Part shown: positions 27,629 to 38,339 of the stretch, in pieces
Numbering within the stretch: position 1 is the stretch's first letter
Layout: the number at the start of each line of letters is the position of its first letter
NCBI RefSeq assembly: GCF_002090115.1
Contig: NZ_BBRK01000004.1
Location: 1,178,001 to 1,242,000, forward strand
Reading direction: 5' to 3'
Length of the DNA: 64,000 nucleotides
Source: Demequina sp. NBRC 110054
GTDB lineage: Bacteria; Actinomycetota; Actinomycetes; Actinomycetales; Demequinaceae
Notes under the pieces: model-generated
What the model saw: the letters and a program-made list of their open reading frames with translations, nothing else
What the model was told of the DNA's origin: nothing
Databases searched by the model: none
Program-made: the position numbers and the translations under genes

Positions 27629-28219
27629 TCAAGCGTGACGGACCGGGCCGACCTTCTGGATGTAGCAGCGGCCGCACAGCGACTCGTACTCGGCCTGCTG
27701 GCCGTCGATCGCGACCTGGTCGCCGTGGCTCACGAACTCGCCGTCGATCCGGCGCCCGTTGAACACGGCCTTGGAGCCACAGCGGCAGATGGTCTTGAGC
27801 TCCTCGATCGCGTGCGAGATCTCGAGCAGGCGCAGCGAGCCGGGGAAGGAGTGGGTCATGAAGTCGCCGCGCAGGCCGTAGCAGAGCACCGGGATGCCCC
27901 GCATGACGGCGATCTCGTAGGCCTCGTCCACCTGGGAGGGCGTGAGGAACTGGGCCTCGTCGACGAAGATCGCGTCGATCTGGTCGAGCGGCTGGTGGGT
28001 CTCAAGCTTGTCGAGGAACGACTCCTCGGCACCGAGCAGCACGTCCACCTTGCGCTCCACGCCGATGCGCGACTGGACGGACTCGCCCGCCTTCGTGTCG
28101 ATGCCGGGCTTCACGATGACGGGGTGCTGGTCGCGCTCCTCATAGTTGTAGGCCGCGGTCAGCAGCAGCGCCGACTTGGACGAGTTCATCGCGCCGTAGC
28201 GGAAGTACAGCTTGGCCAC
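27629..28219 (-). CDS. tdk: Thymidine kinase
   Basis: A 196-residue type II thymidine kinase that phosphorylates thymidine for DNA precursor salvage. The P-loop is GAMNSSKSALL, the Walker-B-like segment is FVDEAQFL, and a zinc-binding lasso is formed by CRCGS and CGRCY near the C-terminus. The start is the GTG at 28219, where GGGGAGG gives a good ribosome site; the longer open frame has none. It is convergent to no gene and is followed by a motif-containing gap before the MFS gene. Confidence 0.93.
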   Translation of the reverse strand: MAKLYFRYGAMNSSKSALLLTAAYNYEERDQHPVIVKPGIDTKAGESVQSRIGVERKVDVLLGAEESFLDKLETHQPLDQIDAIFVDEAQFLTPSQVDEAYEIAVMRGIPVLCYGLRGDFMTHSFPGSLRLLEISHAIEELKTICRCGSKAVFNGRRIDGEFVSHGDQVAIDGQQAEYESLCGRCYIQKVGPVRHA

Positions 28220-28233
28220 CGGTGGTCCTCCCC

Positions 28234-28332
28234 TTATGTTCGGAGGCAATCGTATCGGCGCCAGTCGTGGGCGCCGCCGATCTCCGCGACGGCCGCGAGG
28301 GCGAAGACGACGACGATGCGCACCAGGGTCAT
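28234..28332 (-). pseudogene. 5' remnant of a ynfA/UPF0060 small membrane protein gene
   Basis: An ATG at 28332 opens a 32-codon frame reading MTLVRIVVVFALAAVAEIGG, which matches the first membrane helix of the YnfA/UPF0060 family (AAxAEIGGA motif). After Gly-Ala the frame continues into unrelated residues and stops, where intact members of about 110 residues continue with a Trp-rich loop and three more helices. I read it as a 3'-truncated remnant left when the tdk upstream DNA was joined here. Confidence 0.6.
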
Positions 28333-28415
28333 GGCGCTACCGTAGCCCGGGCCAGGCGGTGGTCTTCCGCACATTCCCTGGTCTCGGGCCGATCGGCTCG
28401 TTATCGTTCGTGAAC

Positions 28416-29765
28416 ATGACCCGTCGCGTGCCCGCCCTCGCGCTCGTCGTCGCCCTCGCGCTGAGCCTCGTGGTGGCCGTGGCACGGCCTGCGTCCGCCG
28501 GCGACGCGCTCTGCGTCGCGCAGTACACGGTGCAGTCGAAGTGGGACGGCGGTTTCACCGCGCAGGTGCGCCTGCGCAACACGTCGGGCAAGGCGCTGAC
28601 GTCGTGGCGCGCGGCCTTCTCTTTCAGGGACGGCCAGACGATCTCGCAGGCCTGGAATGCCGAGGTCGTCACCGCCTCGGGCCGCGCCAAGGTCCGCCAT
28701 CTCTCCTACAACACGTACCTGGCGAAGGGTGCGTGGGTCGAGTTCGGGTTCAACGGCACCTGGTCGGACGGAAACAGGAGGCCCATCGACTTTCGCCTGA
28801 ACGGTGAGCGGTGCGTCCTCAGGAACTGGACGGCGACCGTGACGGGAGGCACCGCATCGTCCGGGCCCACTGCGTCATCCGGCTCGGGTTCCGGCGTCGG
28901 CACCACGACCACGGTCACCCAGTCGTCCTCGAAGTTCTTCACGAGCGCCGACACCCAGGCCTACGCCGCGTTCTCGAGCGCAAGCGGAACCCAGCGGAAG
29001 CTGCTTGCGAAGATCGCGAAGACCCCGACCGCCCGGTGGATCGGCGACTGGTACACCGCGTCCCAGGCCAAGGCCGAGACCAGGACGTACACGAGGGCCG
29101 CGAAGCGGGCCGGGCGCACGGGCGTGATGGTCATCTACGCGATCCCCGGCCGCGACTGCGGCTCATACTCGGCGGGAGGCCTGACGGCGACGGGCTACAA
29201 GAAGTGGATCGATGCGGTTGCAGATGGCATTGTCGGCAAGCCATGGATCGTCCTCGAGCCCGACGCGATCGCGCAGATGGGTGACTGCTCGGGCCAGGGC
29301 AACCGCGCGGGTCTGCTGAGGTACGCAGCGAAGGTACTCACGCAGCACGGCGGCAAGGTCTACCTCGACGCGGGGCACTCGAACTGGCGCTCCGTCTCCG
29401 ACACGGTGAGCCGCCTCAAGGAGGTCGGCTTCCGCTACGCGGTCGGGTTCTCGCTCAACACGTCGAACTACAACACGACCAAGGCGGAGAGGGCCTACGG
29501 GCAGGCTATCTCCAAGAAGCTCGGCGGGAAGCCCTTCGTCATCGACACGTCGCGCAATGGCAACGGCTCCAACGGCGAGTGGTGCAACCCGTCGGGCCGC
29601 GCGCTCGGGGCCAAGCCGGGGCTCGTGAAGGACTCCTCGAACCTCAAGGCGCTGCTGTGGATCAAGGCGCCCGGCGAGTCCGACGGCACGTGCAACGGCG
29701 GGCCGGCCGCGGGGCAGTGGTGGCAGAAAGGCGCGCTCGCGCTCGCGCGCAACGCGTCGTGGTGA
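28416..29765 (+). CDS. Secreted cellulase: CBM2 + GH6 endoglucanase
   Basis: A 449-residue exported enzyme attacking cellulose. Order: signal peptide (1-28, cut after RPASA), family 2 carbohydrate-binding module (about 30-135; WDGGFTAQVRLRN and FGFNGTWS), a Ser/Gly/Thr linker (about 140-165), then a GH6 catalytic domain. GH6 marks include the Asp in IPGRDCGS and the general acid Asp in LEPDAIAQMGDC, plus the C-terminal NGEWCNPSGRALG. It looks like an endoglucanase (CelA type) rather than an exo-enzyme. One dispersed GCATCGTCC motif encodes part of the linker. Confidence 0.92.
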   Translation: MTRRVPALALVVALALSLVVAVARPASAGDALCVAQYTVQSKWDGGFTAQVRLRNTSGKALTSWRAAFSFRDGQTISQAWNAEVVTASGRAKVRHLSYNTYLAKGAWVEFGFNGTWSDGNRRPIDFRLNGERCVLRNWTATVTGGTASSGPTASSGSGSGVGTTTTVTQSSSKFFTSADTQAYAAFSSASGTQRKLLAKIAKTPTARWIGDWYTASQAKAETRTYTRAAKRAGRTGVMVIYAIPGRDCGSYSAGGLTATGYKKWIDAVADGIVGKPWIVLEPDAIAQMGDCSGQGNRAGLLRYAAKVLTQHGGKVYLDAGHSNWRSVSDTVSRLKEVGFRYAVGFSLNTSNYNTTKAERAYGQAISKKLGGKPFVIDTSRNGNGSNGEWCNPSGRALGAKPGLVKDSSNLKALLWIKAPGESDGTCNGGPAAGQWWQKGALALARNASW

Positions 29766-31142: not shown

Positions 31143-31180
31143 GTGGGCCCCGTGGGGCTCGAACCCACGACCTACGGATT
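31143..31180. other. Left attachment site (attL)
   Basis: 38-bp direct repeat identical to 38266-38303, covering the tRNA-Lys 3' end up to the base just 3' of the anticodon (GTGGGCCCCGTGGGG...GGATT). The sequence diverges on both sides, marking the left island edge. Confidence 0.9.
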
Positions 31181-31593
31181 CGCAACCTATGACGTTCGTT
31201 GGTTTGCGGTGGCGCTCGGCATCTTGCTAGACACGCAAGTTGCCAGCGCGAATGCGATCCATCCGTCATCAGGTCATTTCTTCAGTTGCTGCTGATTTCG
31301 GTGGGTATCCGGTGGGGTCTGGATCCGGCGCCGTCGATCGGCGGTGCCATAGAGGGCGCGGTGCTACGTCGTCGCATTGGCCGGTAGTGGAGAACGGCGC
31401 GCTGTCGTGGCCAATCGGGCGCCTGGGGCGCGGAGGCGGGACTCGATAGGGAGCTGCGCTCGGGGCCCAGCAATTCCGTCTGGCGATGGATTCATGGTTC
31501 GGGGCTGTCGTGCAGCGCTCGCCGGGTCCTGCCACATACCAGGGCCTTGCTTCTCGCCTGCTATTCGGTAGGGTTGAGGCAGCCGCAGGTCCA
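31181..31593. other. Non-coding leader upstream of the RT genes
   Basis: 413 nt without a credible gene. It must hold the promoter for the RT operon; I see no clear -35/-10 pair. It contains an inverted repeat ATTGGCC (31376-31382) / GGCCAAT (31409-31415). It is the alternative place for a system RNA if the downstream candidate proves wrong. The in-frame opening at 31486 has no ribosome site and is probably not translated. Confidence 0.5.
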
Positions 31594-32967
31594 ATGGGGG
31601 GGAAGTTGCGCCACACTGAGTTCACGCCCGACGCGCTCTTCCGGATCGCCCTACTCGAAACGCGTAAGGGCCACCCCGATCCGGGCTTTCGGTTCGCCGA
31701 CGTGGCGGACAAGATCCGGGATCTGAAGGACCTACGCGCCGCGCGAATCGAGGAGTGCACGCGGCTTGAGAAGATCGACAAAGCCGCTGCGCGGAAACGT
31801 CGTGGCGAATATATGGCGGAGGCAAGGGACTTGCGCGCCGAGAAGGACCTGCTATTCAGGGACCGACTTGCGACAATCTCAGATGGCATTCTTGCCGATA
31901 TTGATAGTGGCGGGTTCGTATGGGGCCTCTCGCAAGGGAAACTCGCGAGGGGAAAGCGGACCTACCGAGTTGCGGTAGACAACCGGACATACTTCGCAGC
32001 AAAGCAAGTTGAGGCGTCCCTGGGGCAACTGCGCTACGAGGGTATGCCAGACCGCCATGCGATTGCTCGTCAACTTCGTGAGGCATTGGACGGGCCGCTG
32101 CCGCGATGTGTGGCCCGACTGGATATCGAGAGCTACTTCGAGAGCATTCCGCATGCCCGACTTGTTCGCTCGCTGCGAGAAACCCGACGAGTGCCGTCCT
32201 CGGTAGTCACGCTGGTATCCGGTCTGCTTCGCGAATTCGCGGCGATCACCGGTCAAGCGCGCGGCGTCCCGCGCGGCGTCGGCATGAGTTCGCTGCTCGC
32301 TGAGTTCTACGTTCGAGAACTCAATGTGCGAATGCGTAGCCACGACGGCGTGCTGTATTTCGCCAGGTACGTCGACGACATGATCGTGATCACCGGCGAC
32401 GAGGTATCTCTCACGGATGCCGAGCGCCAGGTACGGCGCTTGGTTGAGGCGCTTGGCCTCCGGCTCAATCCTGCGAAGACTGAGCGGAGGCTGTCGATAT
32501 CCAAGCCGTGGGAGCTCTCGCAGAGCATCACGTTCCTCGGCTATGAGTTCCGCAAGGATGGCGGCAACTCGGCGGTTCGTATGCCTCGGACCGTCGTGAA
32601 CAGGTATCAAGAGCGCATTGAAGATGCGTTCCACGCCTGGGATCGCGCTTCCCCTCGCACATCTGGCCACGATGGTCTTCTGCTTGACCGCGTGCGTTTC
32701 CTGTCCGGCAATCTGCGGCTGTCAGGGGGCAGGGCCCGTGCAGTGACAGGGGCGTACTTCAACCAACCGGCGCTGACGGATGTCGAAGATCTACGGGGGC
32801 TCGACGATTTCCTGCGGACGCACATCGACAAGCGTCCGGCTCTGCCTCACCGGCTACGAACGGGCTTGGCTTCGTGCCGGTTTGAGGAGGGTTTCACCGA
32901 CCGTACCTTCTATTCGATGAGCCCCGAGAGGCTGCAGCGATGTGTGGCGGTGTGGCGCGATGCCTAG
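31594..32967 (+). CDS. drt3a: Reverse transcriptase, DRT3a-type (UG3 class)
   Basis: A 457-residue reverse transcriptase, probably one half of the antiphage system DRT3. Visible RT motifs: A, Asp177 in RLDIESYF; B, GVPRGVGMSSLLAEF (224-238); C, YVDD (259-262) with both metal-binding aspartates; D, LRLNPAKTE (289-297); then FLGYEF. The N-terminal about 110 residues are helical and charged, and about 130 residues follow the palm as a thumb-like tail. There is no maturase, endonuclease or retron msr/msd. The ATG at 31594 gives a start consistent with the HTEFTPDALFRIALLETRK opening. The next RT gene overlaps it by 8 bp. Confidence 0.82.
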   Translation: MGGKLRHTEFTPDALFRIALLETRKGHPDPGFRFADVADKIRDLKDLRAARIEECTRLEKIDKAAARKRRGEYMAEARDLRAEKDLLFRDRLATISDGILADIDSGGFVWGLSQGKLARGKRTYRVAVDNRTYFAAKQVEASLGQLRYEGMPDRHAIARQLREALDGPLPRCVARLDIESYFESIPHARLVRSLRETRRVPSSVVTLVSGLLREFAAITGQARGVPRGVGMSSLLAEFYVRELNVRMRSHDGVLYFARYVDDMIVITGDEVSLTDAERQVRRLVEALGLRLNPAKTERRLSISKPWELSQSITFLGYEFRKDGGNSAVRMPRTVVNRYQERIEDAFHAWDRASPRTSGHDGLLLDRVRFLSGNLRLSGGRARAVTGAYFNQPALTDVEDLRGLDDFLRTHIDKRPALPHRLRTGLASCRFEEGFTDRTFYSMSPERLQRCVAVWRDA

Positions 32968-34990
32968 GACCACGCGGAGAACTGACGCCAACAAGTATCG
33001 TGCGGTGCTGTCCGAGGTGCTTCCGTACGAATTGCCCGTCCCATTCTCCAACCATTCCCTATACCGCGCCCTGCGGTCCCTCGACATGAGTTCCGAGAAG
33101 GGGGTAGTCACGGCGCGATGGGTGGGCGCCCAGACTCCGTACCTACTCGCGGTTGTATTCGGACGTTACGTGCCATTTGCCCGTGCGCCAGGTAGTGATG
33201 TCATCACGTTCTCAGACCCCGGCAACGTGAGCGGCAGACGTGCATATCCCGAGACGCGACCGATGCCGCTTCGAACCCGGAAAGCGACTGGATCTGAGCG
33301 TTGGGTGTCTGTGCTGCATCCCAGGGCGCAGGTCTCCGTGGCGGAGTTCTACGAGCGTTACGAGAGTTCGATTCTCTATTTCACGAGCCGAAGTCGATTC
33401 TCGATTCGAAGGCCCGCAGGTGTCGCACGCTATACCGTCCACCGTGACGCGCTGTTCGAGAACGACCTTGCGGACCCGAGTCATGCCGTTGAAGACACGC
33501 TGCATGAGTCTGACGAAGTCCGTTCGTATTTTGTCTACGAGCGATACCCACACATCTATCGCTTCTATGAGTCATCCGAGATGCTCAGCCTGGAACGTCG
33601 ATTCGAGATATTGGCCCGATTCGATGTGACTCGTTGTTTTGAGAGCATTTACACCCACTCCATTTCGTGGGTGACCAATGGGAAGGGCGCGTCCAAGGAA
33701 TATCGGCGTGCATCGGACCGAACCTTCGGCGGTAGTTTCGACCGGCTCATGCAGTCGCTGAACGAGGACGAGACTCATGGGATCGTCATTGGCCCCGAGG
33801 TCTCGCGAATCTTCGCTGAGATCATCCTTCAGGAGATAGACGTCAGGTGCGAGCGTGAGCTAGCGCGCCGTGGTCTTAAGTACGGTCGCGATTACGTAGT
33901 GCGCCGGTACTTGGATGACTACTTCGTCTTTGCCAGCGACATGGGGGTGGTTGATGCGGTCAAGGCTGAGCTGGGGGATGCCTTGCGAGAGTTCAGGCTC
34001 TACCTGAACGAGAGCAAGTCGACTGTGGAGACCTTGCCAGGCGCGGCCCGCGTGTCGATTGCCAAGACGCGCGTTGCAGAGGTTGTGCGTGAGTGGTTGG
34101 GGGTATCGCAGGACTTCGACGTTGATGCGCCGCTAGCGGTTCCTTCGGGAATCTCGGCACGGGGGGCGGTCCTGGACTACAAGTCAGCCCTGCACTCGAG
34201 TGGTGCCGATCAGGCCCTAGTCGCAAACTTCGCGCTGTCGAGGCTCGAGATCGGCCTAGATGTGTATCTCCGCGGCGCCGTTCGGCATCTTCGCAATGAC
34301 CAGACTCGTCCCTGGTCTCATGAGGAGTGGGGGCGTCTGTCGCGCCTGCTCGCTGGGGTCATTGAAGTTGCAGCTGGGGTCTACGTCGGCGCTGAGGCGA
34401 CGTCGCCAGCCGTGAAGCTGTGCCGCATCTCGGCGAGCATCGAGCGTTTTGCCCGTGTTTCGGGAATGCCTGCTGCGTATGCGTCGAACCTGCGGTTGAA
34501 GGTCGCGCGCACCCTTCGAACGATGATCCTGCGCGCGTCCGGTTCGGTGGTCTTGACGTCCCACACCTTGATGCTCCTGGACTGCCTGACGGCACTTGGC
34601 GGCGACTACGCACTTACTGACGCGGAACTGCGAGCCCTTCTCCCGGATCACTCTCTGAAGCCTCTCGACGCCGTCTCCGCGCTGTGCATCCTCCGCCATT
34701 GCGCGGGCTCCCCGAGCCTGGTGTCCCTGCGGCGCGAAGTTGAGCAGTATGCCGTCGAGTCAGTTCGTCTTGGGGAACGGGTCGCGGACGCCCACTCATC
34801 GATGCTTACCGCGGGCCTCCTCTCATCGCAGGCGGTCTCGAAGAGGGCCCGCAAGGATCTCCTCGGCAAATTGGGTTTTCCCTCGGCCGAGATAGACAAA
34901 GTCGACGGATCGTCTCGCCTGTCGTTCGAATGGGAAGTTCCTGACTACTACGTAGCCCTTCAGCGGAAGAGAGGCAATTCCGTATACTAG
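32960..34990 (+). CDS. drt3b: Reverse transcriptase, DRT3b-type (UG8 class)
   Basis: A 676-residue second reverse transcriptase. Motif A is Asp222 in ARFDVTRCFESIY; motif B is THGIVIGPEVSRIFAEIIL (272-290); motif C is YLDD (317-320); motif D is LYLNESKST. Long N-terminal (about 200 residues) and C-terminal (about 300 residues, helical) regions flank the palm; this large size is as expected for the UG8 partner. The ATG at 32960 lies within ATGCCTAG, overlapping the drt3a stop, which implies coupled translation and a two-RT complex. Family knowledge: UG3 and UG8 RTs act together against phages, with an RNA. Confidence 0.82.
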   Translation: MPRTTRRTDANKYRAVLSEVLPYELPVPFSNHSLYRALRSLDMSSEKGVVTARWVGAQTPYLLAVVFGRYVPFARAPGSDVITFSDPGNVSGRRAYPETRPMPLRTRKATGSERWVSVLHPRAQVSVAEFYERYESSILYFTSRSRFSIRRPAGVARYTVHRDALFENDLADPSHAVEDTLHESDEVRSYFVYERYPHIYRFYESSEMLSLERRFEILARFDVTRCFESIYTHSISWVTNGKGASKEYRRASDRTFGGSFDRLMQSLNEDETHGIVIGPEVSRIFAEIILQEIDVRCERELARRGLKYGRDYVVRRYLDDYFVFASDMGVVDAVKAELGDALREFRLYLNESKSTVETLPGAARVSIAKTRVAEVVREWLGVSQDFDVDAPLAVPSGISARGAVLDYKSALHSSGADQALVANFALSRLEIGLDVYLRGAVRHLRNDQTRPWSHEEWGRLSRLLAGVIEVAAGVYVGAEATSPAVKLCRISASIERFARVSGMPAAYASNLRLKVARTLRTMILRASGSVVLTSHTLMLLDCLTALGGDYALTDAELRALLPDHSLKPLDAVSALCILRHCAGSPSLVSLRREVEQYAVESVRLGERVADAHSSMLTAGLLSSQAVSKRARKDLLGKLGFPSAEIDKVDGSSRLSFEWEVPDYYVALQRKRGNSVY

Positions 34991-35165
34991 CGATGCGTCT
35001 CGCAACAACCGCCCTAAAAAGCGACACACCGGCGCCGTCGAGAAATGTTGTGCAGGCTCGACAAGGCCCAGTGCGGCTGTGGTTCCCAATGTTGGAATCG
35101 CACGCACTGGGCTCCTGCGATTCGGCCTCGTGTTGCCGTAGGGCGGGTCGGGAACGGCCCTGCGG
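34991..35165 (+). ncRNA. Candidate DRT3 non-coding RNA with ACACAC segment
   Basis: Directly after the drt3b stop lies a gene-free, highly foldable stretch. GCAACA/TGTTGT (35002-35007 with 35046-35051) encloses CGAC/GTCG (35022-35025 with 35037-35040) and ACACAC (35024-35029). TGCAGG/CCTGCG (35051-35056 with 35114-35119) encloses a perfect 10-bp stem GCCCAGTGCG/CGCACTGGGC (35066-35075 with 35103-35112). AGGGC/GCCCT (35140-35144 with 35157-35161) closes the 3' part; CCGCCCTA (35009-35016) could instead pair with 35139-35146 as a pseudoknot. As I recall, DRT3 RNA carries an AC-repeat template. Ends are estimates. Confidence 0.6.
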
Positions 35166-35316: not shown

Positions 35317-36138
35317 CTAGTCTGTGGCGGCTCTCGGCTCCTGCCCTGTGCCGCCCATGAGCGCGCGCAGGGTGGCAGGCATGGGTGCAGAGTCGGCGTG
35401 TGGGCACACCCGGCCACTCGGCAGGTATCCCCGGGAATCGCATCGTGTGCAACTCGCGATGGCCTCCGTCGTTCGCTGGAGGCGAGCACGGCGCGATGCG
35501 GCGTCAGCCTCGCGTCGCCGGAGTTCGCCCTCGCGGCGCGTGGCGGCACATGCTCGACAAGGTGTCCGGGGGTCATGTACGTCGCCACATGGCTGGGGCT
35601 CTGCAGCGGGGGATCGGCGCTTCCCCTTCCTATGTCTTTCAGTTGACTCAGTAGGGGTGGTCGTGGCCGCCACACTCTTGGTGCCGATGTCGCCGCCCTC
35701 TGGAACACATTGGGTGGCGCTCTGGTGCACCCTTTCCCGGCGCAGAACGATTGCGTATTGCTGGCGCCGTCCGCGGTGCGCGCTGGAGAGTGGGCGTACC
35801 GCCCCAATGGCTATAAGTTCCGCCAGCTGCCGCTGCACGGCGCGGGTGCCGTGATGTCCCATGAGCGCGGCTAGGTGATTAACCCCGCCCCAATATCGGG
35901 GTGGGTCGTCGTTGTCTCTTGACGCGGACGCCATGAGCGCTAGGAGCAAGCGGAGGCTCGGCCTACTCCCAATCGCATCGCCCCATTGGCTGATGGCGGC
36001 GTTCACGTTCCTGGCGCCCACGGTGTGTGTCCCTCGCCCTCGGCCCTCGGCGCGAGCTGGTTGGCTCCGCGGGGGTTGCGTGGGTCCCCTAGTACCTGAG
36101 GTCCGCGGCGGCTCGTTCGTCGAGCCACTGTTCGACAT
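35317..36138 (-). CDS. Winged-helix/zinc-binding island protein, possible replication initiator
   Basis: A protein of up to 273 residues. A central helix-turn-helix-like region (PSLRLLLALMASASR, then HLAALMGHHGTRAVQRQLAE) is followed by a Cys-rich tail (CRACAATRREGE and CTRCDSRGYLPSGRVCPHAD) that could bind zinc. Such small wHTH proteins occur in actinobacterial integrative elements next to excisionase and may act as replication or regulatory factors; I cannot prove this. The first 39 residues are low complexity and overlap the excisionase gene, so a GTG at 36021 may be the true start. Confidence 0.55.
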   Translation of the reverse strand: MSNSGSTNEPPRTSGTRGPTQPPRSQPARAEGRGRGTHTVGARNVNAAISQWGDAIGSRPSLRLLLALMASASRDNDDPPRYWGGVNHLAALMGHHGTRAVQRQLAELIAIGAVRPLSSAHRGRRQQYAIVLRRERVHQSATQCVPEGGDIGTKSVAATTTPTESTERHRKGKRRSPAAEPQPCGDVHDPRTPCRACAATRREGELRRREADAASRRARLQRTTEAIASCTRCDSRGYLPSGRVCPHADSAPMPATLRALMGGTGQEPRAATD

Positions 36139-36301
36139 CTTCGGGTCGGAATCGGAGATGGCGTCCGATCCGGATGCCTCGTGGGCCGGTGCCGCGGGAG
36201 CGCCACACGTAGATCGTCTGTTCAGGTACGCCCAGCGTCCGGGAGAGGTCGCTCACGGTAAGCAGGGACGCCCGGGTCTGGCGTGGTCCGATTGTGGTCA
36301 T
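36089..36301 (-). CDS. xis: Excisionase / AlpA-like MerR-type DNA-binding protein
   Basis: A 70-residue helix-turn-helix protein of the excisionase family (SLLTVSDLSRTLGVPEQTIY, then WRSRGTGPRGIRIGRHLRF and a C-terminal DVEQWLDERA). It would bind the att region and bias the integrase towards excision, or act as a regulator. The ATG at 36301 is preceded by GAGGAGG at good spacing, better than the upstream in-frame ATG. It is divergent from the XRE-integrase pair, the usual control switch layout of small integrative elements. Confidence 0.82.
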   Translation of the reverse strand: MTTIGPRQTRASLLTVSDLSRTLGVPEQTIYVWRSRGTGPRGIRIGRHLRFRPEDVEQWLDERAAADLRY

Positions 36302-36373
36302 GGAAGCCTCCTCGTGGTTGCGGCCATGCATTGGTCGCCGCTGAGATCGTGTGACTCACGTTAGGCATGAGTG

Positions 36374-36409: not shown

Positions 36410-37042
36410 ATGAATCAAGAACTGAGTGTCGGTGCCGAGGATGCATGGGGCGCCTGGACGCGACGGGTGGGGCGGAACGTAGCGGCTGCGCGCGAACGGC
36501 GTGGCATGTCTGCTCGCGAGCTCGCGGAACGTACTAGGGCGCTCGGCTTTGAGGTGCCGCGAAACTCGATCGCCAACCTCGAGTCGGGCCGGAAGGGTTC
36601 TGTGTCGATAGCGGAAGTGGCGGCGCTCGCCGGTGCCCTGGAGGTTGCTCCGCTGGTCTTGTTGTTCGACCCTGAGGGTGCCGATGCCGAGTTTCTCCCT
36701 GGGCGCGAGGCGGCACAGGTCGTAGCCGCCGATTGGTTCGCAGGACTCCAGCCGGAACCTCGATCGGATGGTCCGATGCGAGCATCCGACCTCGACTACG
36801 CGGGTGCGCTTCCGCTCTATCGCAGGCACCGTGAGGTCGCCGCCAGGCTCAGCGCCTTCGCTCGCTCGATCGAGATTCGCGATCATGCGGTGGCCTGGAG
36901 CGGGCCGACCGATGGTGACTGCCGTGAGTGGGTGCAACGACTTCTACGCGTGCGCGCTGAGATTCGTGAGCACGGCTATCGGGAGCTGCCGATCGAAGAT
37001 GCGGTCCGAGGGCTTGTAGATCGGTTTGGCGACGATGGCTAG
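36410..37042 (+). CDS. XRE family transcriptional regulator
   Basis: A 210-residue protein with an XRE helix-turn-helix near residues 20-80 (NVAAARERRGMSARELAERT, then NSIANLESGRKGSVSIAEVA) and an uncharacterised C-terminal domain. Its place between the divergent excisionase and the integrase suggests it is the lysogeny-like switch of the element. It overlaps the integrase gene by 8 bp (ATGGCTAG), the same overlap geometry seen between the two RT genes. It may also respond to phage or host signals, which is speculation. Confidence 0.8.
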   Translation: MNQELSVGAEDAWGAWTRRVGRNVAAARERRGMSARELAERTRALGFEVPRNSIANLESGRKGSVSIAEVAALAGALEVAPLVLLFDPEGADAEFLPGREAAQVVAADWFAGLQPEPRSDGPMRASDLDYAGALPLYRRHREVAARLSAFARSIEIRDHAVAWSGPTDGDCREWVQRLLRVRAEIREHGYRELPIEDAVRGLVDRFGDDG

Positions 37043-38168
37043 ACCTCCGCTTGAGGTGGGGACCTGGGGGCATATTTCCATCGCCGAAGTAGAGCCGCGG
37101 CGCCGCTACATCGCGCGCGCCCGCTTTCGCGACTTTGACGGTCTGACGAGGAAGGTCGAGGCGGCGGGGCCGTCTAGAGCTCGTGCCGAGGCGCGGCTGC
37201 TAGAGCGCCTGCGGCGTCGAGCGAAGGCGGGCGATGAGTACCTATCGGGACTCACGCGGGTCTCGGTACTCGCGTCACATTGGCTCGAGACTGAGGTGGA
37301 CGGATCGTCACGGGCCGCGTCGACCAGGCTGCGCTACCGGTTGACGGTGAACAACCACGTGACGCCGCGCATCGGCGGGCTGCTTCTGCACGAGGTCAGC
37401 ACGGCCACTGTCGATCGAGTTCTGCGAGCGATCACAACTGATACGGGCGCGGCGACCGCAAGGCTCGCGAGATCGTGCATGGCATCGATGTTTGCTCTAG
37501 CGGTACGTCACGACGCGATTGCTGCGAACCCCGTGCGTGAGACTCTGGCCGTCGCGCCTACCGGCGGCGAAGCCAAAGCAATTTCAGTTGTCGACGTGAA
37601 GGCGCTCCGTGTTGATCTCCGGGCGGACCAAGTCGCACGGGATGCTGACTTGATCGACCTCGTTGACTTGCTCCTAGTGACGGGCGTTCGGATTGGTGAA
37701 GCGCTCGCGCTGAGGTGGCAGGACATCGACTTCGAAACGCGGAGGGTGGTCGTCAGCGGCACGATGGTTCGCGACGGCGCCAGAGGGCTTGTGCGCCAAG
37801 GTCAGACGAAGGGCAAGCGCGCCCGATCCCTGTCCATACCGCAGGCAACCGTCACGATGCTTCTCGAGCGGCAGGTGCACGGTGTTCCGAGCGAGGTCGT
37901 GTTCCCCTCCGCCGCCCTCGGATTCCGGGAGGTGTCCACGGTGAACAAGCAGTGGCGCGCGTTCCGATCACGCAATCCGCGCTGGAGTGAAGTGCAGCTA
38001 AAGCACTTCCGCAAGACCGTTGCGACGACCCTTGAGCGCACCGTCGGCCTGGAGAGCGCTGCGAGTGTGCTCGGCCACGCGGGCGTCGCTGTGACTTCGA
38101 AACACTATGTTGAGCGGGCGCTTGAGGCTCCCGACCACTCCGAAATCCTTGCTGGACTGCTCGCGTAG
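37035..38168 (+). CDS. int: Tyrosine recombinase (phage-type integrase)
   Basis: A 377-residue integrase that moves the island in and out of tRNA-Lys. An N-terminal arm-binding and SAM-like core-binding domain (about 1-175) precedes the catalytic domain. All catalytic residues are present: Arg219 (TGVRIGEALALRW), Lys259 (QTKGKRARS), His324 and Arg326 (KHFRKT), His348 (LGHAG) and nucleophile Tyr358 (SKHYVER). It ends 98 bp before attR beside the intact tRNA, the usual arrangement. Starts at ATG within the XRE stop region. No truncation, so the element may still be mobile. Confidence 0.93.
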   Translation: MARPPLEVGTWGHISIAEVEPRRRYIARARFRDFDGLTRKVEAAGPSRARAEARLLERLRRRAKAGDEYLSGLTRVSVLASHWLETEVDGSSRAASTRLRYRLTVNNHVTPRIGGLLLHEVSTATVDRVLRAITTDTGAATARLARSCMASMFALAVRHDAIAANPVRETLAVAPTGGEAKAISVVDVKALRVDLRADQVARDADLIDLVDLLLVTGVRIGEALALRWQDIDFETRRVVVSGTMVRDGARGLVRQGQTKGKRARSLSIPQATVTMLLERQVHGVPSEVVFPSAALGFREVSTVNKQWRAFRSRNPRWSEVQLKHFRKTVATTLERTVGLESAASVLGHAGVAVTSKHYVERALEAPDHSEILAGLLA

Positions 38169-38265: not shown

Positions 38266-38303
38266 GTGGGCCCCGTGGGGCTCGAACCCACGACCTACGG
38301 ATT
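38266..38303. other. Right attachment site (attR) within tRNA-Lys
   Basis: 38-bp direct repeat matching 31143-31180 exactly. It ends at the anticodon-loop edge of the intact tRNA-Lys, so strand exchange probably occurs in the anticodon/T-arm part of the tRNA gene. Confidence 0.9.
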
Positions 38304-38339
38304 AAAAGTCCGCTGCTCTACCAACTGAGCTAGAGGCCC
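38267..38339 (-). tRNA. tRNA-Lys (TTT)
   Basis: The reverse complement forms a 73-nt cloverleaf: acceptor GGGCCTC with GGGGCCC, anticodon loop CTTTTAA (anticodon TTT, Lys), T arm GTGGG-TTCGAGC-CCCAC, discriminator A. The gene is intact and serves as the integration site of the island to its left. Confidence 0.95.

Follow-up and report, generated by a model that had tools for sequence, protein, structure and literature searches.

Two adjacent reverse transcriptase (RT) genes, drt3a and drt3b, in a 64-kb window of Demequina sp. NBRC 110054 (the window is the whole stretch of DNA analysed, and all coordinates are positions within it) very probably form an actinobacterial DRT3 defence system, which is carried on a small tRNA-Lys integrative element and would work by a mechanism like that of the E. 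coli system. The locus has a UG3-type RT with a YxDD motif, a UG8-type RT with YxDD directly downstream, the hexamer ACACAC just 3' of drt3b, recognised from sequence only, and the Glu and Arg gates and C-terminal Tyr of Drt3b. DRT3 is the system for which it is reported that the sequence of a DNA strand is set by a protein instead of a nucleic acid.

The drt3a and drt3b genes and their relatives

The two genes and the methods by which they were assigned are as follows (AF2, AlphaFold2 model).
31594..32967, + strand: drt3a (UG3, class 2 RT; predicted to make poly(dTdG) from the RNA template); PADLOC, NCBIfam, AF2/Foldseek
32960..34990, + strand: drt3b (UG8, class 1 RT whose C-terminal half is helical; predicted to make poly(dCdA) with protein as both primer and template); PADLOC, NCBIfam, residues, AF2/Foldseek

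Both open reading frames (ORFs) are open at the coordinates given in the original prediction and encode proteins of 457 (ORF 1) and 676 (ORF 2) amino acids. The RT motifs are complete as described there, with YVDD at residues 259-262 of ORF 1 and YLDD at residues 317-320 of ORF 2. Counting ORF 2 from the ATG at 32960, the ORFs share the 8 nt reported earlier (32960-32967). An in-frame GTG at 32942, with GAGAGG ~10 nt upstream by eye, is an alternative start of ORF 2 that would extend the overlap to 26 nt, and the ORF 1 reading frame is also open from an in-frame ATG at 31486, a possible start. Pfam found no maturase or endonuclease domain in either ORF, in line with the earlier claim. The RVT_1 domain scores above the Pfam cut-off in ORF 1 and just under it in ORF 2 (27.2 vs. 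29.6 bits).

The comparison with UG3 and UG8 profiles, which the original prediction had set as its check, was run and both ORFs passed with wide margins, supporting the DRT3 identity. ORF 1 matches the PADLOC Drt3a model with 264.9 bits (4.2e-79) vs. 96.4 bits for the best RT model of another class (UG17), and ORF 2 matches Drt3b with 455.8 bits (6.9e-137) vs. 152.1 bits for Drt6. Both ORFs also pass the NCBIfam equivalog cut-offs, with 244.2 bits for NF041747 (Drt3a, cut-off 200) and 425.2 bits for NF041748 (Drt3b, cut-off 350). UG3 and UG8 correspond to Drt3a and Drt3b (PMC13174585), and ~97% of UG3 RTs adjoin a UG8 RT (PMC8934634).

Assignments to group II intron RTs (TIGR04416, 76.7 and 28.5 bits vs. 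a cut-off of 300) and retron RTs (NF038233, 34.9 and 15.6 bits vs. a cut-off of 235) were rejected, and the other UG classes were ruled out by score margins of 168 bits for ORF 1 and 304 bits for ORF 2. It is exceedingly improbable that two unrelated RT genes of these kinds became neighbours by chance. Such a coincidence would be in keeping with the weak matches of both ORFs to group II intron, retron and other UG models. However, both ORFs are RTs, and RTs generally give such matches; the margins and the sub-threshold group II and retron scores argue for DRT3, as do both trees described below, which group the proteins with actinobacterial DRT3 pairs, and the presence of the template hexamer ACACAC.

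The AF2 model of Drt3a has a mean predicted local distance difference test score (pLDDT) of 93.5 and its top Foldseek match is DRT9. The Drt3b model (mean pLDDT 86.4) is matched best by DRT4, DRT6, UG15 and AbiK. In these models, Drt3b appears to share with the class 1 UG/Abi RTs a fold of an RT domain followed by a helical domain, with only 14-16% identity in the structural alignments; those systems are not known to have a second RT. The Drt3a model resembles DRT9 and the group II intron RTs, with 15-17% identity in the DRT9 and 6ar1/6ar3 rows, and differs from the group II intron RTs in having no maturase domain. The Foldseek matches agree with the assignment of Drt3a to class 2 and of Drt3b to class 1, as the classes are named in PMC13174585. 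No DRT3 entry was found among the best 50 Foldseek matches for either protein (library to 2026-04-08).

The best PDB matches by sequence are 9z6y for Drt3a and 26cz and 9z6y for Drt3b. Compared with E. coli DRT3 (PDB 9z6y; Drt3b-like 26cz), the window locus has the same gene order, downstream ACACAC RNA (PMC13174585), gates and C-terminal Tyr. The differences are an actinobacterial host and matches to the solved chains of only 64, 217 and 182 bits.

Relatives of Drt3b were collected from a genome scan (best 80 of 328), a viral scan (29), eight plasmid records and G022, a genome of the same genus as the window. This gave 118 rows with a Drt3b profile match of at least 150 bits. Eight were dropped, namely the window again (L001), pieces of one broken copy in G011 (L003-L005), and truncated or odd rows (L132, L135, L136 and L138). 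The 110 rows counted are not 110 independent cases because copies or near-copies remain (L093/L117, L121/L137 and L054/L064 among them). The broken G011 copy is followed by an RNA like that of G022 (by eye). In L027, an E. coli plasmid (CP083496.1), drt3b is annotated as two ORFs downstream of a drt3a-like ORF.

Within DRT3, trees were built from 107 Drt3b rows (L027, L137 and L117 left out) and from 104 Drt3a rows (L117 and L137 left out, as well as four in which no Drt3a ORF reached 150 bits). In both, one clade unites the window with G022 and six named actinobacterial loci, with Shimodaira-Hasegawa-like approximate likelihood ratio test (SH-aLRT) values of 100 for Drt3b and 99 for Drt3a, as expected for a pair inherited together. 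Both full trees are quick LG+G4 trees with warnings of long branches, the window and G022 among them, and of odd composition. A mixture model applied to 41 chosen Drt3b rows gave the actinobacterial clade a support of 99, and of 98 without the longest branch, G022. The named carriers are Brevibacterium (two), Microbacterium, Aurantimicrobium, Aeromicrobium and Scrofimicrobium; these and G022 carry ACACAC at +30 to +50 after drt3b as the window does, and differ from it in a Drt3b identity of at most 36%. The G022 Drt3b is 28% identical to that of the window and is encoded at a different site, flanked by DEAD-box helicase-like and PheT-like ORFs, with no integrase among the listed ORFs (by eye). 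All named DRT3 rows together cover eight phyla.

By rank, Drt3b passes the cut-off in 2/47 genomes (family), 4/396 (order), 1/394 (class) and 1/396 (phylum sample). The order, class and phylum samples share genomes, and the window's own genome is counted in all three. In the genus of G461, 2 of 57 genomes have it. Two genomes assigned to the window's order encode Drt3b proteins identical to ones from named Brevibacterium records, which points to the order of Brevibacterium for the window as well. The original prediction regarded the locus as a host-range extension. DRT3 does prove rare in this group, but it already occurs in named actinobacterial genomes that form one clade with the window. 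Judged by these sequences, DRT3 is not new to Actinobacteria, and the window locus is placed as a deep-branching member of a supported actinobacterial clade. A search of the open-access literature, to which this statement is limited, found no paper on DRT3 or UG3/UG8 RTs in Actinobacteria, Actinomycetota or Streptomyces.

Two long actinobacterial Drt3b-like proteins, L171 (G757) and L172 (G654), score 315.4 and 307.8 bits, under the NCBIfam cut-off. They are 47% identical to each other and are followed downstream by CACACA (L171) and ACACAC (L172). They appear to be a further divergent DRT3 subgroup.

Gate residues of Drt3b and the predicted template RNA

The nucleotide gates and primer of E. 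coli Drt3b are E22, R71, R241 and Y666, of which R71 stacks on the incoming base (PMC13174585); the gate residues are named Glu26 and Arg253 in PMC13213688. The equivalents in the window, E24, R114, R283 and Y676, are all present as placed by PDB alignments, or by a separate alignment for Y676. Over the 110 rows of the Drt3b alignment, the R241 column is Arg throughout, the E22 column has 103 Glu, 5 Asp and 2 gaps (truncated rows), and the R71 column has 107 Arg, 1 Asn and 2 gaps. The Y666 column is Tyr in 109 rows and Ala in one (L106, which also ends in Tyr). Tyr is the final residue in 102 rows and lies within the last four residues in all 110. The variable position of the catalytic YxDD is Val in 102 rows, Ile in 6 and Leu, as in the window, in 2. 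No altered-gate Drt3b with a different dinucleotide template was found among these rows; the five rows with Asp for Glu and the one with Asn at R71 keep ACACAC. This last row, L033 from a Phaeobacter inhibens plasmid, is the only one with Asn among the 108 that have a letter in the column.

A third component, which the original prediction missed, is a predicted template RNA gene 3' of drt3b.
34991..35115, + strand: predicted DRT3 noncoding RNA (ends approximate); conserved place and template, fold of 34991-35125
35024..35029, + strand: ACACAC, predicted Drt3a template; sole + strand copy in the window, conserved in the rows
35037..35062, + strand: predicted RNA hairpin immediately after the template; present in both the minimum free energy and the centroid fold
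35065..35113, + strand: predicted long hairpin on the 3' side of the RNA; present in the same two folds

The + strand of the window has a single ACACAC, at 35024, 34 nt past the drt3b stop; the opposite strand has five. In 108 of the 110 rows the hexamer is present on the sense strand in the 300 nt downstream of drt3b, compared with 6.9 expected from base composition. Either ACACAC or CACACA is present there in all 110 rows and lies within 80 nt in 87; CACACA replaces ACACAC in L049 and L075, and also in L171, which is outside the 110. The offset of +34 in the window compares with a median of +42 over the 110 rows. Control regions contain ACACAC far less often: 3/108 at 300-600 nt downstream, 6/110 in the last 300 nt of drt3b, 7/110 in mid drt3b and 4/97 in the 300 nt before drt3a. 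GTGTGT was found downstream of drt3b in 2/110 rows. The template of the window extends as ACACACNNGC, in which the GC is invariant in 40 A5 rows and eight actinobacterial A6 rows. Counted over all rows, however, CACACNNGC is found in only 78/110.

The predicted RNA, taken as 34991-35125, has a more stable fold than 199 of its 200 shuffles (z -2.57), and two neighbouring stretches of the window fold no better than shuffles (z 0.99 and -1.05). Among the actinobacterial relatives folded singly, with L038 left out, G022 folds strongly (z -5.86) and five others hardly or not above shuffles (z -0.05 to -1.11). A per-row hairpin test, which is a weak test, gave ranks of 0.05 or less in 22/105 rows for the 26 nt before the template and 35/105 for the 50 nt after it, compared with 11/105 for a far control.

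Alignment of 40 non-actinobacterial RNAs showed a consensus of hairpin, template, hairpin and terminator-like hairpin, in which 20 of the 21 pairs have compensatory changes. The same RNAs (A5, L039-L118, ~135 nt) also indicate a pseudoknot of six pairs between the 5' part and the loop of the terminator-like hairpin, all with two-sided changes; its cells are paired in 76%, vs. 81-90% in the other helices. No pseudoknot is mentioned in the parts of PMC13174585 consulted. The published DRT3 RNA covariance model has 32 unique hits, and a figure legend of the same paper gives 41 systems (PMC13174585). Our covariance model R1, built from the 40 RNAs, matched 10 of 35 sources with an E-value of at most 10 (5 sources below 0.01), and missed the annotated plasmid rows L030-L034. 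A match to R1 marks an RNA subgroup and is not a DRT3-defining feature. At gathering thresholds Rfam found only four tRNAs in the window and no RNA family at the site. RNAalifold found only 4 pairs in the eight actinobacterial RNAs.

Several observations speak against so direct a likeness to the known systems. R1 misses the window RNA even with filters off, and it also misses the seven other actinobacterial RNAs (0/8 matched). The hairpin abutting the template on its 5' side in the window is weak (-1.6 kcal/mol), and 9 of 40 shuffles are as good. Finally, the window Drt3b reaches no more than about 36% identity with any other in the set and lies on a long branch. Since R1 is blank at the site and RNAalifold yields only 4 pairs, the case for the RNA is built on the hexamer, where it lies, and the modest single-sequence fold. 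The actinobacterial RNAs appear to share template and place, with a fold that is either different or too diverged to detect.

The mismatch with the model of the other DRT3 RNAs and the weak 5' hairpin would fit a chance hexamer at 35024, with the true template RNA, if any, elsewhere. We consider this very unlikely, given that the hexamer is the sole + strand ACACAC in 64 kb, that its offset is near the median of the rows, and that it carries the extension with the invariant GC, although the all-row count qualifies this last point. Somewhat less remote, though still unlikely, is a pair that is DRT3 by descent but has decayed or makes a different DNA product in the lineage of the window. The deep divergence of Drt3b, its YLDD where most rows have YVDD, and the RNA unmatched by R1 are consistent with such a change. 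However, both ORFs are open and both gates, R114, the catalytic aspartates, the terminal Tyr and ACACAC are all intact, and L041 likewise combines YLDD with an ACACAC template.

Proposed mechanism and the host nuclease

The E. coli Drt3a makes poly(dTdG) by copying an ACACAC loop in the RNA encoded 3' of drt3b, and Drt3b is primed by its C-terminal Tyr and uses Glu and Arg to alternate dA and dC (PMC13174585). In the window, the corresponding ACACAC loop, at 35024-35029 of the predicted downstream RNA, would be copied repeatedly by Drt3a into poly(dTdG). Drt3b would use its final residue, Y676, as primer and, with E24 admitting dA and R283 admitting dC, make the complementary poly(dCdA) with no nucleic-acid template. 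The two strands would then pair into a repeat duplex DNA whose accumulation during infection would stop growth. Transcription of the RNA, assembly of the 6:6:6 complex, the DNA products, their toxicity and antiphage defence are all inferred here from the E. coli system. We further propose, as a new step, that the duplex may be kept low by another nuclease such as AdnAB.

RecBCD restrains the DRT3 product in E. coli (PMC13174585). The genome of the window differs in this respect: no RecC match was found in a search that covered this genome only, and no RecD scores above the cut-off, the best match below it being 37.5 bits. Two adjacent genes in it encode an AdnAB-like pair, with almost full-length matches to chains B and A of PDB 6ppj/6ppr/7sjr, which are structures of mycobacterial AdnAB.

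RecD above the cut-off is absent from all 11 actinobacterial DRT3 genomes, which include one with a broken copy and two with Drt3b below the family cut-off, and is present in 11 of 42 other DRT3 genomes reached from ~73 non-actinobacterial genome-scan loci. The RecD test is a single equivalog cut-off, and several of the genomes reached through loci are metagenome bins. Matches below the cut-off at E 0.001 or better are found in 7/11 actinobacterial genomes, the window's included, and in 37/42 others, four of which have RecD-like pieces of 156-273 bits. A match to the AdnA-like protein of the window is found in 11/11 actinobacterial DRT3 genomes, in pieces in G011, G461 and G757. AdnAB is common in Actinobacteria, so its presence in these hosts indicates no special association with DRT3. 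With no RecD above the cut-off in the 11 genomes, any guard there would be another nuclease, for example AdnAB.

A broader picture is possible, to which we give somewhat less than even weight. Actinobacterial DRT3 would form a deep branch whose RNA has a fold of its own and which keeps the same double template, RNA ACACAC and protein gates. It would be checked by AdnAB rather than RecBCD, the RecBCD guard of E. coli being the solution of one host, in view of the RecD counts above. The comparisons indicate that RNA template and protein gates stay matched across the eight named phyla sampled. If DRT3 works here, its hosts include bacteria in which the nuclease proposed as its restraint in E. coli has no recognisable copy. 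The matched template and gates, together with hosts without a recognisable RecBCD guard, make two questions testable: whether guards are interchangeable, and how much RNA structure Drt3a needs beyond the template.

The tRNA-Lys integrative element

The mobile island named in the original prediction is real, with an attachment (att) repeat, an adjacent tyrosine integrase, an excisionase-like protein and a lower GC content; its borders, like the downstream RNA gene, are additions made here. A perfect 38-bp direct repeat of the tRNA-Lys 3' end (31143-31180 and 38266-38303) bounds an element of 7161 bp with a GC content of 63.0%, vs. 69.5% and 71.1% in the flanks. The integrase and the att direct repeat at a tRNA 3' end are the features of a tRNA-targeting element. 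Besides drt3a, drt3b and the RNA, its features are the following (HTH, helix-turn-helix).
31143..31180, no strand: attL, copy of the tRNA-Lys 3' end and left element end; 38-bp perfect repeat with 38266-38303
35317..36138, - strand: weakly replication-initiator-like protein; phrog_3171 5.5e-6, no Pfam match above cut-off
36089..36331, - strand: excisionase-like HTH protein; HTH_17 1.9e-13, phrog_66 8.3e-11
36410..37042, + strand: XRE-type regulator; HTH_31 and HTH_3 above cut-off
37026..38168, + strand: tyrosine integrase; Phage_integrase 5.4e-16, phrog_1 6.9e-42
38266..38339, - strand: tRNA-Lys (ttt), attachment-site gene, with attR at 38266-38303; tRNA search and repeat

In another species of the genus (G018; L164, G018:C8:50001-66000), a 57% identical integrase lies beside tRNA-Lys(ttt) with other cargo. 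As read from the translations, the ORFs of this element are XRE regulator-like, excisionase-like and primase-/helicase-like instead of DRT3. Given this related element with different cargo, the tRNA-Lys(ttt) site may be a recurrent insertion point. Outside the element, the ORF at 28212-29765 (+ strand) of the window reads by eye from its translation as a secreted cellulase with a carbohydrate-binding domain.

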